This document shows, piece by piece, positions 28,062-36,248 of a stretch of 49,099 nt of DNA. The stretch is from Deltaproteobacteria bacterium (lineage in GTDB: Bacteria > Desulfobacterota > Desulfarculia > Adiutricales > Adiutricaceae): positions 1 through 49,099 of the forward strand of contig JAISEL010000043.1 of NCBI GenBank assembly GCA_031264185.1. The letters run 5' to 3'. The position numbers and the translations under genes are program-made. The stretch's first letter is position 1; every line of letters starts with the position of its first letter. Below the pieces are notes generated by a model, which was given only the letters and a program-made list of their open reading frames with translations, was not told the origin of the DNA and made no database searches.

Positions 28062-30083
28062 TTAAAGGTCAATTAAACTTTTGGAGACGCTCTGGCCGGC
28101 GCCGCGCAGCAGGATATTTAACGCGGCCAGAAGATTGGTAAAGGCCCGGGACATCTGGGGCTGGTCCCCGGGCAGAAAGACCAGAGAGTCAGCGGACATG
28201 ACCCCGCAGGCTTCGCTTAAAAGCTGGCTTAATTCAAAAATTTTGTCCGCTTCGGTCTTCAGGGCCGACACGTCCCTGAACTGATGGCGCATCTCGCCCC
28301 AGCCGGTGCGGTAAATGACGTCCATGGTCCGGATGAGCCGCTCGGTCTCCGGTTCCTCGAAATTAAAGGTCACTGAAACCGGACCCTGGGCGTGAGTCTG
28401 CCAGATGGTCTGGGGATTAAGGGTATGAAACTTAATAGGCGGAAACAATTCGGCCAGTCCGGCCAGATATTCGGTCAGCTGGGTCTCGGTCACCCTGGCT
28501 TCGGGGCTTTCAAGCAGGGGGACCTTCTGGGACGGGCCGTAAAGCTGATTGCTGACCAGCCAGGCGCAGGCTTTGGCCGCCCGGGAGGTCTGGTAGATGA
28601 TATTTTTATCCAAAAGAAAATCACCGCCCTTCCGTCCGTCCTGTGGCCGGTGAAAGACAGACCAGATCTCATGGTCTTTGCGGAAATACATCTCGGAGGA
28701 GAGATTTTGCCTTATTATATGGGAGGGCAGAAGTTCAACCGTAGCCTCGGTTCCGCCTAACCGGCCCAGCATCCGGGCGGCCATGGGCGCCAGGACCTCG
28801 TTCTGGGCGTCGACCTGACCAGGAAAATGGGTCATCAGGGTATTGGCGATGATCATATAGCAGCTGAACAGAAGCTTAAGCAGCTCCTGGCCCTGATTGA
28901 GCTGCTCGCGGTTGGACCACCGGTCGTAATTGTAAAGGTGAATCAGCTTTTCTTCCGGCCAGTGCCATTCCCGGATCCATTTGGCCAGAACCCGGCTTTT
29001 CGGGTCATTCCCGTTCAAATCAGGCAGAGGTCTGGAGCTTTGGGCGCGGCCCAGAACCTTTAAGACCGCCGCCTCTTCCACCAGATTCAGCTGCTGGCGG
29101 GACAGCTTGCGGGACACGAAATCAATGACCCGGTCCACAGTGATAATGTATGGATCAACCGGGATGTCGGGGTCTGTATTTAATAGGATCTTCTCTTTGA
29201 CAATATCGCATAGGAGGGGACTGGCGAAATTCGTCTCCACAGCCTCCAGAATAGGCATAATCTTCAGCAGCCCTTTAAAAGGATTGTCTTCCGATTTGCA
29301 GGTCAGCCACATGGCCGAGGCCAGATATTCCTGGGGCCTGGGCTTGGAGGGGAAGCCTAAATCCACGTAAAAAGGCGGCTGGCCGGTCCAGTCCAGGGGA
29401 GCCAGCTTAACGGCCGCTGCCCGGTATTCTTTTTCCGGCCGTCCGGTCGGCCAGACGCACCACAGAGGAATCCGGCCGGCCACATATAATATGGTCCGGT
29501 AAAGCTCTTCCACCAGAAGCATGGGGGCCACTTCCCCGTCCCGTTCTTCATTGTGGGTCTCCAAGCGGCCCTGGGCCAGGACCGACAGATCGATCGGATA
29601 GAAGTTGGCCTCGGTTTCATGCTCGTCCATGGCCCATTGGGAGAGTGCCAGAAGCTTTTCCCGGAACAGGGCCAGACTCCGGCCGTTTAAGCGCGACGGC
29701 CGGTAGCAGACCCAGTAGTCCAGATCCGACTGAGCCGTATGGCCGACCGAACCCGAAGAGCCGATCAGAACGAGGCATTCCACAACCGGATCACTGACGA
29801 CGGTCCGGGTCCAGGGACCGGAGGCCGCAGTTTCCGCTCTCTCCAGCCACTGGTCATAGAACAGAAGGCCGTGGGGCGTGCTGGGATCAGCCTGATAGCC
29901 GGGCAGAGAAGGATGATTGTAGTGAAGGAGAGCGGGAGTCAGATCAAAGACCTGCTTAAAGCCCGGGGTGGCCAGGGCCCGCAAATCCCTCGTTCTGGCC
30001 CGGTTATTGCGGGTCTGGAACTGTAAAGTGGCCGAGATAAGCGAATTTAAGGCCTCAGGTTTTTCGGTTGATGGCTCTCTCAT
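28062..30083 (-). CDS. cyaA: Class I adenylate cyclase
   Basis: Makes cAMP from ATP. The 673-residue product carries the class I nucleotidyltransferase-fold core: GSSGSVGHTAQSDLDYWVC at 108-126, with metal-binding D120 and D122, followed by NFYPIDLSVL, which supplies the third acidic residue. The N-terminal domain and helical middle resemble the CyaA family, but the protein is about 175 residues shorter than E. coli CyaA, so the C-terminal regulatory region is reduced. A good promoter lies so close to the ATG that the message may be leaderless. A likely cAMP target, the PilB fusion, is encoded 11 kb away. Divergent from fliC. Confidence 0.88.
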   Translation of the reverse strand: MREPSTEKPEALNSLISATLQFQTRNNRARTRDLRALATPGFKQVFDLTPALLHYNHPSLPGYQADPSTPHGLLFYDQWLERAETAASGPWTRTVVSDPVVECLVLIGSSGSVGHTAQSDLDYWVCYRPSRLNGRSLALFREKLLALSQWAMDEHETEANFYPIDLSVLAQGRLETHNEERDGEVAPMLLVEELYRTILYVAGRIPLWCVWPTGRPEKEYRAAAVKLAPLDWTGQPPFYVDLGFPSKPRPQEYLASAMWLTCKSEDNPFKGLLKIMPILEAVETNFASPLLCDIVKEKILLNTDPDIPVDPYIITVDRVIDFVSRKLSRQQLNLVEEAAVLKVLGRAQSSRPLPDLNGNDPKSRVLAKWIREWHWPEEKLIHLYNYDRWSNREQLNQGQELLKLLFSCYMIIANTLMTHFPGQVDAQNEVLAPMAARMLGRLGGTEATVELLPSHIIRQNLSSEMYFRKDHEIWSVFHRPQDGRKGGDFLLDKNIIYQTSRAAKACAWLVSNQLYGPSQKVPLLESPEARVTETQLTEYLAGLAELFPPIKFHTLNPQTIWQTHAQGPVSVTFNFEEPETERLIRTMDVIYRTGWGEMRHQFRDVSALKTEADKIFELSQLLSEACGVMSADSLVFLPGDQPQMSRAFTNLLAALNILLRGAGQSVSKSLIDL

Positions 30084-32386: not shown

Positions 32387-33018
32387 GGGTCTTTATTTCT
32401 TTCATCCCGCCGGAATTTCATCATAAACAAAAAGAAGAAGCTATTTTGAGTTATATTTTAGGCTTAAGGCTATAATATTTCTATTTTTACCAAATATTCT
32501 GGGCTAATGGCCGGGAGGAGAGTAGTTTTTTGTCTGCCAGAATAAAAGACGAGAGGATATTTTTATAAGTAACTATCTGTAATAACTGAGTAACTGGCTG
32601 TAAGAGTTTTTTCTGTCCCTTAATAATGAGCAGGTCAAACCACAGGAAGACTGGCAGGCAGAGAGAAAAGCTGCCGAGGCCCAGGAGAGATTAGCTCCGT
32701 AATATGTGTGAATTAAAATTCACAGAATCAAAAATCTATCAATAACTTTGGAAAGAAATGTTCTTTCGGTGTGAACAAAAGTTTACAGTAATAAATAAAG
32801 TAACACACTGTAATTACTGAATATTTTAAACTAAGACATTTTATCAGGCCATAGTCTGCCGAATAAAGAGCCGGGCGGGACCAAATTTCAGGAAAATATG
32901 AACCTGAAATTCCTGTAAAAGGCTTTTGAAGGCCTAAAGTGTGAACTGAGATTCACATAATCTAAGCCGAGATAGAGAATTTAGATGGTAACTAACTGAA
33001 ATCATTAGTTTTTTAAGG
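32387..33018. promoter_or_regulatory. Long upstream region of the DnaJ-like gene with three operator-like palindromes
   Basis: No intact gene is seen. A 27-codon open tail (LSLNNEQVKPQEDWQAERKA...) ending at 32700 may be a gene remnant. Three 18-bp palindromes of form TGTGAA-N6-TTCACA lie at 32707-32724, 32770-32787 (right half TTTACA) and 32940-32957. Their centres are 63 and 170 bp apart, close to whole helical turns. Their position upstream of a sigma-54 promoter suggests activator-binding (UAS) sites. Confidence 0.55.
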
Positions 33019-33036
33019 TTGGCCCAAAAGTTGCTT
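33019..33036 (+). promoter_or_regulatory. Sigma-54 promoter of the DnaJ-like gene
   Basis: TTGGCCC-AAAAG-TTGCTT has the invariant -24 GG (33021-33022) and -12 GC (33033-33034) separated by 10 bases, the spacing required by sigma-54. The predicted start is near 33046, 26 bases before the ATG. Confidence 0.65.
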
Positions 33037-33071
33037 AATATCCTGGCGAAAGAAAACTTTAGGAGGCCGCC

Positions 33072-33665
33072 ATGAACAACATCCAGTCCTGCCAGGAGCT
33101 AAACGTCAGAGCCGGAGCGACTGAGGCTGAAATCAAGGCGGCTTTCCGGCAAGCAGCCAGAGAGAGCCATCCGGACAGCAGCCCGAACGGCGGAAACACC
33201 GTGAGGTTCCAGACAGCCTATAAGGCGTACCAAAAACTTCTGTCCGAGGCCCGGTCCCACCAAAAAAGCGGCGATCTTCCGGGCCGGACGCCTTTTCAGT
33301 TTCTTAACCGGACCCGGAACGGTCTGGACGTTTTCTATGATCTGGCCCTGGTTAAAAAAGAAGGCGCCTTTACAATAGCAGTGCCCTGGACTTCGGAAGA
33401 AGTCTGTCCGCGCTGTTTCGGTCAGGGACAGACTTTGACCCAGCTGAATCAGGGTTCGGTTTACCGGCCGGTTCCTTGTCCCCGCTGCGGCGGCACCGGT
33501 CATGCGGACAAGTTCAGTCATCTGGAAGTTAAGGTCAGCCCGGAAATGGTCCGGGCCGGAAAGATCCGGCTAAAAGGGGCCGGATCCTATGACCCCAAAG
33601 AAGCTCGCCGGGGGGACCTGTACCTGAATTTGAATTTTGTGAGCCGTCTGGCCAAAAGCAACTGA
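33072..33665 (+). CDS. Compact DnaJ-like co-chaperone
   Basis: The 197-residue product has an N-terminal J domain (about 3-62) with the HPD motif at 33-35, needed to stimulate DnaK ATPase. The G/F linker is nearly absent. A half-size zinc region follows: two CxxC-x-G-x-G motifs (C112/C115 in CPRCFGQG, C136/C139 in CPRCGGTG) instead of the four in DnaJ. Then comes one substrate-binding-like beta region ending near GDLYLNLNF. It is therefore about half of canonical DnaJ and probably serves a special client or regulator. AGGAGG precedes the ATG. The sigma-54 promoter indicates conditional expression. It lies downstream of fliC but is transcribed separately. Confidence 0.8.
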   Translation: MNNIQSCQELNVRAGATEAEIKAAFRQAARESHPDSSPNGGNTVRFQTAYKAYQKLLSEARSHQKSGDLPGRTPFQFLNRTRNGLDVFYDLALVKKEGAFTIAVPWTSEEVCPRCFGQGQTLTQLNQGSVYRPVPCPRCGGTGHADKFSHLEVKVSPEMVRAGKIRLKGAGSYDPKEARRGDLYLNLNFVSRLAKSN

Positions 33666-34500
33666 TTCTGCTGATTTTAGCCGGAGTTTAAGACTTATGA
33701 CTGCTTTCGGCCAAAAGACGCCAACCAAATAAGGTGAATTGACATCCTCTTCTGCCTAAAGTCGGGGGGACTCACCCGGAGCCGGAAACGTTACCTGTTA
33801 CGGTCTCCTCGGCGGCTTCCAGCTTCACTAAGCTTCAATCCGCCGCAGGCAGACACGGCTTGCCAGCAGCCGGCTTGAGGTCAGCACGCAGTATTTTTGG
33901 TAAAAACCATTTTATTCTTTGTAAGCGCCGCTCCTTACATCTAAGGCCTGAAGGCCGGGGCTTTACGGCGCTTCTGTTAAAAGTCATGGCCAAAAAGGCA
34001 GAGGCTGTCAGCATTTGCCAATTCCGGCTTAAAAATGCCTTTTTTGCGGCTATAAAAATCCAGAAAAGACAGTTTATTCCTGTATGCTGATTTAATGACT
34101 GCAATTATTGCGGTCCCCAATATTGTTCCATGATGCCCTGTACCTTCAGGAAGAAGGAGGGAACTCCAATTGAACAGAAAAATATAGAGCAGCATTCAGT
34201 AAAGAGGCTGACAGAAAAAGTGCACACTTAAATAGTTATGAAAATCTTATAAAAATCAAACAATGGGAAATTCGGTATATTCCCTCATAATAGCTGGAGC
34301 TGAAAGGTCTCCCGGCGTCTCTTATGACCTGGCGGGTAATTGCCGGGATTACTGTATATGACGGTCATTTGCTAAGTGCGCTGCAAGAGTAACAGGTGCT
34401 ATTATTCGGCGCTGCGGGCGTATACGAGTAAGAATCGCGGTCATCCGAGAAGTGTTTGGCGGAATTTTTGGACGAAAGCGCTTTCTGCCCTGCCGAATGA
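33666..34500. other. Decayed stretch with IS200/IS605-type end
   Basis: No intact gene. The left part carries a TnpB-tail/right-end remnant, listed separately. A hairpin AGCGCCG...CGGCGCT with an inner GGCCTGAAGGCC lies near 33925-33975. The rest shows only short open frames without protein-like text. Confidence 0.4.
33725..33860 (-). mobile_element. Possible IS200/IS605 TnpB tail and right end
   Basis: On the - strand, KLEAAEETVTGNVSGSG followed by a stop resembles the C-terminal tail of IS605-type TnpB. Directly after it lies TCCCCCGACTTTAGGCAG and GAGGATGTCAA, typical of the right end (and of the omega-RNA 3' scaffold) of such elements. The hairpin is imperfect and no catalytic part of TnpB is present, so this would be a fossil. 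The assignment rests on pattern memory only. Confidence 0.35.
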
Positions 34501-35060
34501 CGGTCGCACAAAATTTATTTTGCCGCTTCATCAAAGACTCCATCGTTCAAATAGCAGAGGATGCGGACTTCAATGCCGTCGACGGAGATTAAAATTTCTC
34601 TGTTGTCACTCCCGCAGGAGACTGGCGCCTGACCGGTCACTTCCTTGTGTCTGGCCGCTGGATCTTTGAAGTCATCCTCGTAGACAAAATCATGGCTTTT
34701 GTTATGGGCTGGTCTCTGCAAATCATCATGACTCTGCGCGGGAAGGAATTCAAAATATCCGGATTGTCGACTTTGATGCAAAGGTATTGGTTAGTAACGG
34801 AATTATCGCTTTCGTACGGGCAGGCCGCAGAGCGCCTATGGCGGGCTTCCGGGTCAGCTGCAGGCATTCGGTCTCACTTTGCCGGCTGAAGTTGATCCGC
34901 TCAAAACCGTCGGTGACTTCTGCGCCGCAGATGTTCAGGAGCTAGCTGCTGTCAAGCTGCCTCTCGATGAAGAAGCCGAGGAAAATGCTCTTCAGCTTTT
35001 CACAGGACTCTTGCTCCAAATCATGCGCCGACTGCATATATTCCGGTCATGGCATATCAT
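34501..35060 (-). pseudogene. Decayed gene of unknown function
   Basis: Protein-like text on the - strand is spread over frames. QSAHDLEQESCEKLKSIFLG and LLNICGAEVTDGFERINFSR are separated by a TAG. Then SVTNQYLCIKVDNPDILNSF appears, and, in another frame, SHDFVYEDDFKDPAARHKEV through to VDGIEVRILCYLNDGVFDEA near 34520. At least two frameshifts and one stop break it. The family is not recognised. Confidence 0.4.
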
Positions 35061-35308
35061 TTTGCGGTTTGGCCTTTGACGTAAAAGAGCTTTTAAATTG
35101 CTTTAAGATTACAGCAAAAATATCCGAAATTCTCGGACCATAAAACAGAAAAGACAGGATTCAGCGGCAGCATTAAGTCTGCGTATGTACAAATTTAAGA
35201 ACGGTTTTTCATTCATCAGGCCGAAACAATGAGGGAGCTTGTTCCGGAATTGCTAAAGGTGGTTCAGACCTCAAAACGGGTTTTGGAACTAAAATTTTTT
35301 ACTTTTTA
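35061..35308. other. Spacer, nothing recognised
   Basis: No coding sequence, repeat or regulatory element was recognised in this short stretch. Confidence 0.4.
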
Positions 35309-35808
35309 TTGACAAAGAAAAATTTTCTGGGTATTCTGGATTCAATAAATGTTTCTGCGGAAGAAAACATGTCTGAAGAGCCGAATGCCAAAAAACTCAG
35401 CGAAGGCCTCTTAAATCCTGGCTTGGATCCGTTGGGCTCTCCTGACTCCGCTGCTGAATTTGAAAAAGCGCCGGCGTTTTTTACCGCGCTTGGAAGTTCG
35501 AAACCGAAGCGGGGTATCTGAAAACCCAATTGGAAAGTAAAGCCTCAGGTTTCGATCTGAAAACCATTGTAGAAAGCATTGCGTCAAAAAATATTGAATT
35601 CAAGGCAGAGCTTAATTCCAGAACAGACAAAATTGAGTCCAAAATGGAAAATCTTGAGACTGGGCTTACGTCCAAAATGTCCGAATTGAGTCAGCAGATT
35701 AGAGAATAATTGTCTGTAAAAAATTTCCACTCGTCAGTTGTTACTAGTACTTTAATTAGTATCGCTATACTATTGGCGGATATTTTTATTTCTAACTGGC
35801 TTAAGTAG
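35309..35808 (+). pseudogene. Broken coiled-coil protein with C-terminal membrane helix
   Basis: The first frame (35309-35521) gives 70 residues and stops. The adjoining frame continues as FETEAGYLKTQLESKASGFD and a coiled coil (ELNSRTDKIESKMENLETGL) to a TAA after QQIRE at 35707-35709. The same frame then goes on through a hydrophobic helix (VVTSTLISIAILLADIFI) to a TAG at 35806-35808. One frameshift and one nonsense codon thus interrupt a protein of about 165 residues. The layout, a coiled coil ending in a membrane anchor, resembles DUF1640-type proteins, but this is only a layout match. Confidence 0.45.
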
Positions 35809-36248
35809 ATTTGCTGACAGAGTATTTATTGCCTTGGGTAATAATTATGATAAACAAAATAAAAACAGGAACGGTTCTCCCCTATCCTAATCATTAGGGG
35901 TATTTTAGGGTCCCTGTCGGCTCCGGAGTCTCGAATCGTTTTAACGAGGTTGGAGACAGATCTTTTTAAATTAAAGAAATAGATTCTATTTTACCATTTT
36001 ATTAAGTTAAATAAGCTGAAAATATCACCTTTACCTCGAATAAAAACCTTCCGTTCGAACGCGAACACAATTTCCTGGGTTAAATAAAAGACATTTATCA
36101 ACAAATTGAGGACAGGCTGAAAAAATACCTGGATTTTTAAGAGGGATCAGGTTATAATAGACCTTTTGAGCGGGCAGTTAAGACCGGGCCTTTTCAATGT
36201 ATAGTGTTCTCAAATTTCTGCTGTTATTCTCCAAACATCGGATCTTAA
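35809..36248. other. Upstream region of gyrA
   Basis: No gene is seen. A TATAAT at 36153-36158, with no clear -35, is the best promoter candidate for gyrA and would give a leader of about 85 bases. Confidence 0.35.

Follow-up and report, generated by a model that had tools for sequence, protein, structure and literature searches.

Several sigma-54 stress switches, PspF/psp among them, place a protective protein under enhancer-dependent control, and bacterial DnaJ-type co-chaperones are usually expressed together with the general heat-shock genes. The verified AtoC sites of E. coli read, on the other strand, TGTGCA-N6-TGCATA and TGCGCA-N6-TGCATA (PMC3118216). The sigma-54 regulome of Desulfovibrio vulgaris contains many dedicated activators with small regulons, a situation akin to the one described here, and neither DnaJ nor the box sequence reported below appears in the text of that paper (PMC4641369). 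Our literature searches for sigma-54-controlled DnaJ turned up only general regulon surveys. Here we analysed a stretch of 49,099 nucleotides (hereafter the window) from a deltaproteobacterial genome, G000, in which a short DnaJ-like gene (mini-DnaJ) stands behind a -24/-12 element and three upstream boxes. Activator, boxes and product differ from those of PspF/psp. Our results make it probable that this arrangement is a sigma-54 switch specific to the lineage and dedicated to a single gene, that of a minimal J protein. Relatives include Candidatus Adiutrix, which belongs to the order Adiutricales of the class Desulfarculia. Termite guts are a known habitat of its family (PMC9137090) and presumably the origin of the window's genome as well.

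The coordinates of the features are collected in Table 1. Domain matches and conservation throughout the order indicate that the gene is real and encodes a J protein. Its product carries a J domain at residues 10-59, with the HPD motif at 33-35, and a C-terminal domain I (CTD I) at approximately residues 75-190 with a single zinc site (C112, C115, C136, C139). PF00226 is matched at 4.1e-09, the CXXCXGXG and DnaJ_C matches are partial, and the best PDB matches are DnaJ proteins. The AlphaFold model (pLDDT 87) shows, after the J domain, a beta domain with a hairpin that bears the cysteines, the orientation of the two domains being uncertain because pTM is only 0.56. In an alignment of 30 mini-DnaJ homologues the HPD motif and the four cysteines are invariant, as is the GDL motif across the order. 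The protein shares with type I DnaJ a J domain with HPD and a CTD I with CXXCXGXG zinc motifs, but it has two of these motifs instead of four and lacks CTD II, the dimer segment and the G/F-rich region; its score against the NCBIfam DnaJ family (68.8 bits) falls below the cut-off of 377.2. Aligned to the full-length DnaJ encoded in its own genome, it ends after CTD I. The software alignment pairs its first motif with DnaJ motif 2; our own reading, by position, is that the retained motifs would be motifs 1 and 4, that is, the outer Zn1 site, because the first mini-DnaJ motif comes after the strand that precedes DnaJ motif 1. In Salmonella DnaJ the stress phenotypes tested do not depend on the Zn1 cysteines, and the oxidoreductase site is Zn2 (PMC8262869), so that mini-DnaJ would have kept the zinc site that is the less essential one there. 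An ordinary full-length DnaJ coexists in the window's genome and, besides this canonical protein, there is a second DnaJ-like protein (339 aa; G000:C34; L203:882-1901), which has just two CXXCXGXG motifs.

Table 1. Features of the mini-DnaJ locus and of related genes.
Feature	Location	Strand	Remarks
Distal box 1, TGTGAA-N6-TTCACA, TGTGAATTAAAATTCACA	32707..32724	.	exact; kept in paralogue with changed spacer
Distal box 2, TGTGAA-N6-TTTACA, TGTGAACAAAAGTTTACA	32770..32787	.	one mismatch; compared with paralogue
Proximal box 3, TGTGAACTGAGATTCACA	32940..32957	.	exact; centre 72 bp from GG of -24 element
Putative sigma-54 -24/-12 element TTGGCCC-N5-TTGCTT, TTGGCCCAAAAGTTGCTT	33019..33036	+	kept in 41/44 homologous upstream regions
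Ribosome-binding site AGGAGG	33061..33066	+	read from sequence
mini-DnaJ gene	33072..33665	+	197 aa; profile matches, homologue alignment, predicted structure
Three tandem mini-DnaJ genes	L066 (G029:C1:743690-746396)		each with own sigma-54 element and boxes
Paralogues without J domain	L053:12381-12836, L056:6124-6597, L056:7061-7519, L082, L083, L084		

The preliminary description had proposed an enhancer-type sigma-54 promoter with GG-N10-GC spacing, and both points hold: GG lies at 33021-33022 and GC at 33033-33034, and the -24/-12 element and the boxes are conserved in relatives. In the homologous regions the element takes the form TGG[CT]-N8-TGC, most often 45-64 bp upstream of the start codon that was chosen, with a family consensus close to TTGGCACG-N4-TTGCTA. 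The strict form TGGC-N8-TGC is found within 125 bp in 37 of the 44 upstream regions and in 0.7% (0.007 per region) of shuffled sequence, although the promoter and box counts are not independent events because the homologues are related. The promoter is presumably used by sigma-54. Loss of the palindromes and of the GG-N10-GC element in relatives had been named as what would speak against this reading; instead, 41 of 44 upstream regions keep the element and the boxes are enriched.

All three of the 18-bp palindromes described upstream are present, one of them (at 32770) being imperfect by one mismatch, and the distances reported were accurate, with centres 63 and 170 bp apart and the last box ending 62 bp before 33019. 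Beyond these three, the window holds no further box within two mismatches (1.06 sites are expected by chance at ≤2 mismatches, and 0.07 for the refined consensus). A search of the whole genome (4.4 Mb) yielded 10 sites at ≤1 mismatch, versus 3 for the reversed pattern, and half of the 10 are upstream of the genome's two J genes. Other genes were discarded as targets, since most of the exact palindromes away from J genes are isolated or within coding frames. In another genome, four boxes, three of them exact and one weaker (L192, G009:C327, 40-401), lie about 620 bp before the gene of a 1,491-aa protein, which by reading of its N-terminus has the look of a BcrA/BadF/HgdC-type activase; TGG[CT]-N8-TGC has no match there on the relevant strand.

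Comparison of the 44 upstream regions revealed 44 copies of TGTGAA-N6-TTCACA at ≤1 mismatch (0.05 expected) and 83 at ≤2 mismatches (0.55 expected), with spacers other than N6 near zero and without comparable enrichment. The refined box YGYGMA-N6-TKCRCR at 11/12 or better gives 98 copies against 2.05 expected, the unrefined count being the cleaner test because the refined box was derived from the same sequences. Several homologues, chiefly those without a J domain, have the promoter and no boxes. Of the 41 promoters, 13 have the centre of the nearest box 71-74 bp from the GG and 8 have it at 82-87 bp, so that the proximal box occupies two registers, which differ by about one helical turn. Helical phasing among the palindromes, which had also been suggested, does not extend to the family (46 adjacent box distances, period 10.5 bp, Rayleigh p 0.18). 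The conserved quantity is the distance between proximal box and promoter, rather than box-box phasing.

The combination of promoter and proximal box, hereafter the composite, is tied almost exclusively to the mini-DnaJ gene. Demanding TTGCT and a 12/12 box, we recovered it at 6 places in 43 genomes, 5 of them at the mini-DnaJ family, and at 1 place in the reversed control; such a strict pattern overlooks many true cases and hence gauges specificity, not frequency. In the window's genome it occurs once, at the mini-DnaJ gene. The idea of a dedicated J protein is supported. The sole composite away from a known J gene is at G040:C530:15780-15895 (L323).

From the order, probably Adiutricales, 41 genomes were compared, mostly incomplete metagenome assemblies; 32 of them contain a homologue, and we found none outside the order. 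Outside the Deltaproteobacteria and Ca. Adiutrix records, the alignment scan contained no close members, the remainder being ordinary DnaJ-like proteins of 20-30% identity, and a single-sequence scan of named genomes gave no match. A paralogue in the window's own genome (86-87% amino acid identity) has the same boxes, and between the two copies the half-sites are largely kept while spacers and flanks have changed. Tandem copies, three in G029 and two in G017, each have their own promoter and boxes. Furthermore, the genus contains paralogues of about 155 aa without a J domain, in which the zinc-bearing CTD and the -24/-12 element are kept and the boxes mostly lost; this suggests that the client-binding part is useful without DnaK.

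The neighbourhood of the gene points to a single-gene unit. In relatives the conserved neighbours (lytic transglycosylase, HAD phosphatase, PrmA) are mostly hundreds of bases away, and none of the 16 downstream transglycosylase genes checked has a sigma-54 element, so an operon shared with downstream genes was rejected. Mini-DnaJ is therefore probably transcribed alone. In the window, the J gene and gyrA are separated by approximately 2.6 kb (33666-36248) in which there is no ORF of at least 100 aa and of which the other loci compared contain no copy; neither this interval nor the rest of the window matches Rfam.

To look for the activator, for which the preliminary description had proposed no particular protein, we compared the eight clear sigma-54 activators of the window's genome, which also has weaker matches, with their orthologues in the J-bearing genomes G003, G006 and G018 and in the J-less G023. 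Only two of the eight are present in the first three and missing from the last. One, an orphan with a degenerate receiver (L011), was dropped, as it is absent from the J-bearing G007 and G010. The other is an AtoC-like response regulator (L013, G000:C115:9316-10731), found in all 14 J-bearing genomes that are at least 90% complete, absent from the J-less G023 and G026, and 59-82% identical over the order. It has a receiver, an AAA+ domain with GAFTGA and a Fis-type HTH, and its gene adjoins that of a GAF-PAS histidine kinase. Its recognition helix, LSRRAL-K-Q-Y, resembles that of AtoC, GISRRALMYKLQEYGI; we call it AtoC-like, not AtoC, because it scores 467.6 bits against an equivalog cut-off of 714 in NCBIfam. 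Moreover, the E. coli ato sites match the box consensus at 11/12 positions, and only 0.1% of random 18-mers reach 10 or more. The association with J presence over all 41 genomes is not significant (Fisher p 0.30), because the regulator also occurs in seven genomes without J, none of them complete (70-87%), and the absence signal comes from two small genomes of one genus (G023 and G026). When only the last 70 residues are compared, it is a different activator, L016, that comes nearest to AtoC; we take its helix to be like that of flagellar FlrC, and it was rejected, being missing from the J-bearing G003 and G006. Taken together, there is about an even chance that the AtoC-like regulator, with its neighbouring kinase, acts on the boxes.

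It is also quite possible that a different activator of the genome binds the boxes, or that they are the sites of a regulator unrelated to sigma-54 that only modulates the promoter. Indeed, L012, L014, L015 and L018 are likewise present in most of the J-bearing genomes compared, and in G004 an L018 orthologue is found some 5.7 kb away from the J gene, the one case of an activator gene beside J, for which reason adjacency was not retained as a guide to the regulator. All four, however, are also kept in the J-less G023, and the likeness of the boxes to AtoC sites, together with the AtoC-type helix, favours L013.

A flagellar role, suggested in the preliminary description, would make mini-DnaJ an accessory chaperone co-regulated with fliC. 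In the window fliC is indeed the upstream neighbour of the J gene, and genomes that lack full-length flagellin (G023, G026 and, with a trace, G028) tend to lack J as well (Fisher p 0.02). However, fliC has no sigma-54 element, its adjacency to J is not conserved in relatives, where the neighbour is mostly the lytic transglycosylase, and in 43 genomes no composite switch was found at flagellar genes. The genomes without flagellin and J are few and include related reduced genomes; the joint absence may stand for one or two events and may reflect genome reduction. We therefore consider the flagellar tie unlikely.

It is more improbable still that the palindromes are CRP/FNR-type sites. CRP sites have the form TGTGA-N6-TCACA. 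The boxes contain TGTGA and TCACA half-sites, and 3 kb upstream, at 28062-30083 on the minus strand, lies the gene of a class I adenylate cyclase (673 aa). But in the window these half-sites are separated by N8, and over the 44 upstream regions the CRP spacing yields 1 site at ≤1 mismatch where the box spacing yields 44. Furthermore, the half-sites vary towards TGCGCA and TGCACA, a tendency shared with AtoC sites, and locations as far as about 540 bp from a -24/-12 promoter fit an enhancer. Finally, although mini-DnaJ is half-length and lacks CTD II and two zinc motifs, the notion that it is a decaying fragment of dnaJ is virtually untenable and is already refuted by conservation: the ORF is full, HPD, cysteines and GDL motif are invariant across the order, the gene has its own conserved promoter and several intact tandem copies, and a full-length DnaJ is present beside it.

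The single-gene sigma-54 switch would operate as follows. Upon a signal, an enhancer-binding protein of the NtrC family would bind the YGYGMA-N6-TKCRCR boxes, the proximal one at its fixed distance and the distal ones serving as additional enhancer sites. Its AAA+ ATPase would then open the promoter, kept closed by sigma-54 RNA polymerase, and only mini-DnaJ would be transcribed. Through its HPD J domain the protein should recruit DnaK, a partnership that the HPD motif makes likely, while the retained CTD I and zinc site predict client binding. Because CTD II and the dimer segment are missing, mini-DnaJ is predicted to be a small, probably monomeric, conditional DnaK co-chaperone. More tentatively, an AtoC-like two-component system might have a regulon of about one gene, that of a minimal monomeric J protein, kept order-wide and amplified in tandem in some genomes, as a line from signal to chaperone outside the heat-shock regulons, with the paralogues lacking the J domain as DnaK-independent holdases.

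That a J protein should have an enhancer-dependent promoter to itself, conserved throughout an order, would mean that one specific signal switches some of the recruitment of DnaK. The two registers of the proximal box and the nearly single-gene target set offer a clean test case for assigning boxes to activators, and the paralogues that have lost the J domain but retain the promoter type separate J and substrate-binding functions.

Among the closest described systems is AtoSC of E. coli. As at atoDAEB, a sigma-54 promoter with upstream boxes, paired in E. coli, stands before the target, and in both cases the (candidate) activator is an NtrC-family response regulator encoded beside a histidine kinase; the boxes and the candidate resemble AtoC in the architecture of its 18-bp site (TGYGCA-N6-TGCATA) and in the recognition helix. 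Unlike AtoSC, the candidate pair has a kinase with GAF and PAS domains and the regulator gene is not adjacent to its presumed target. And while AtoSC governs acetoacetate catabolism, here the target would be one chaperone gene.
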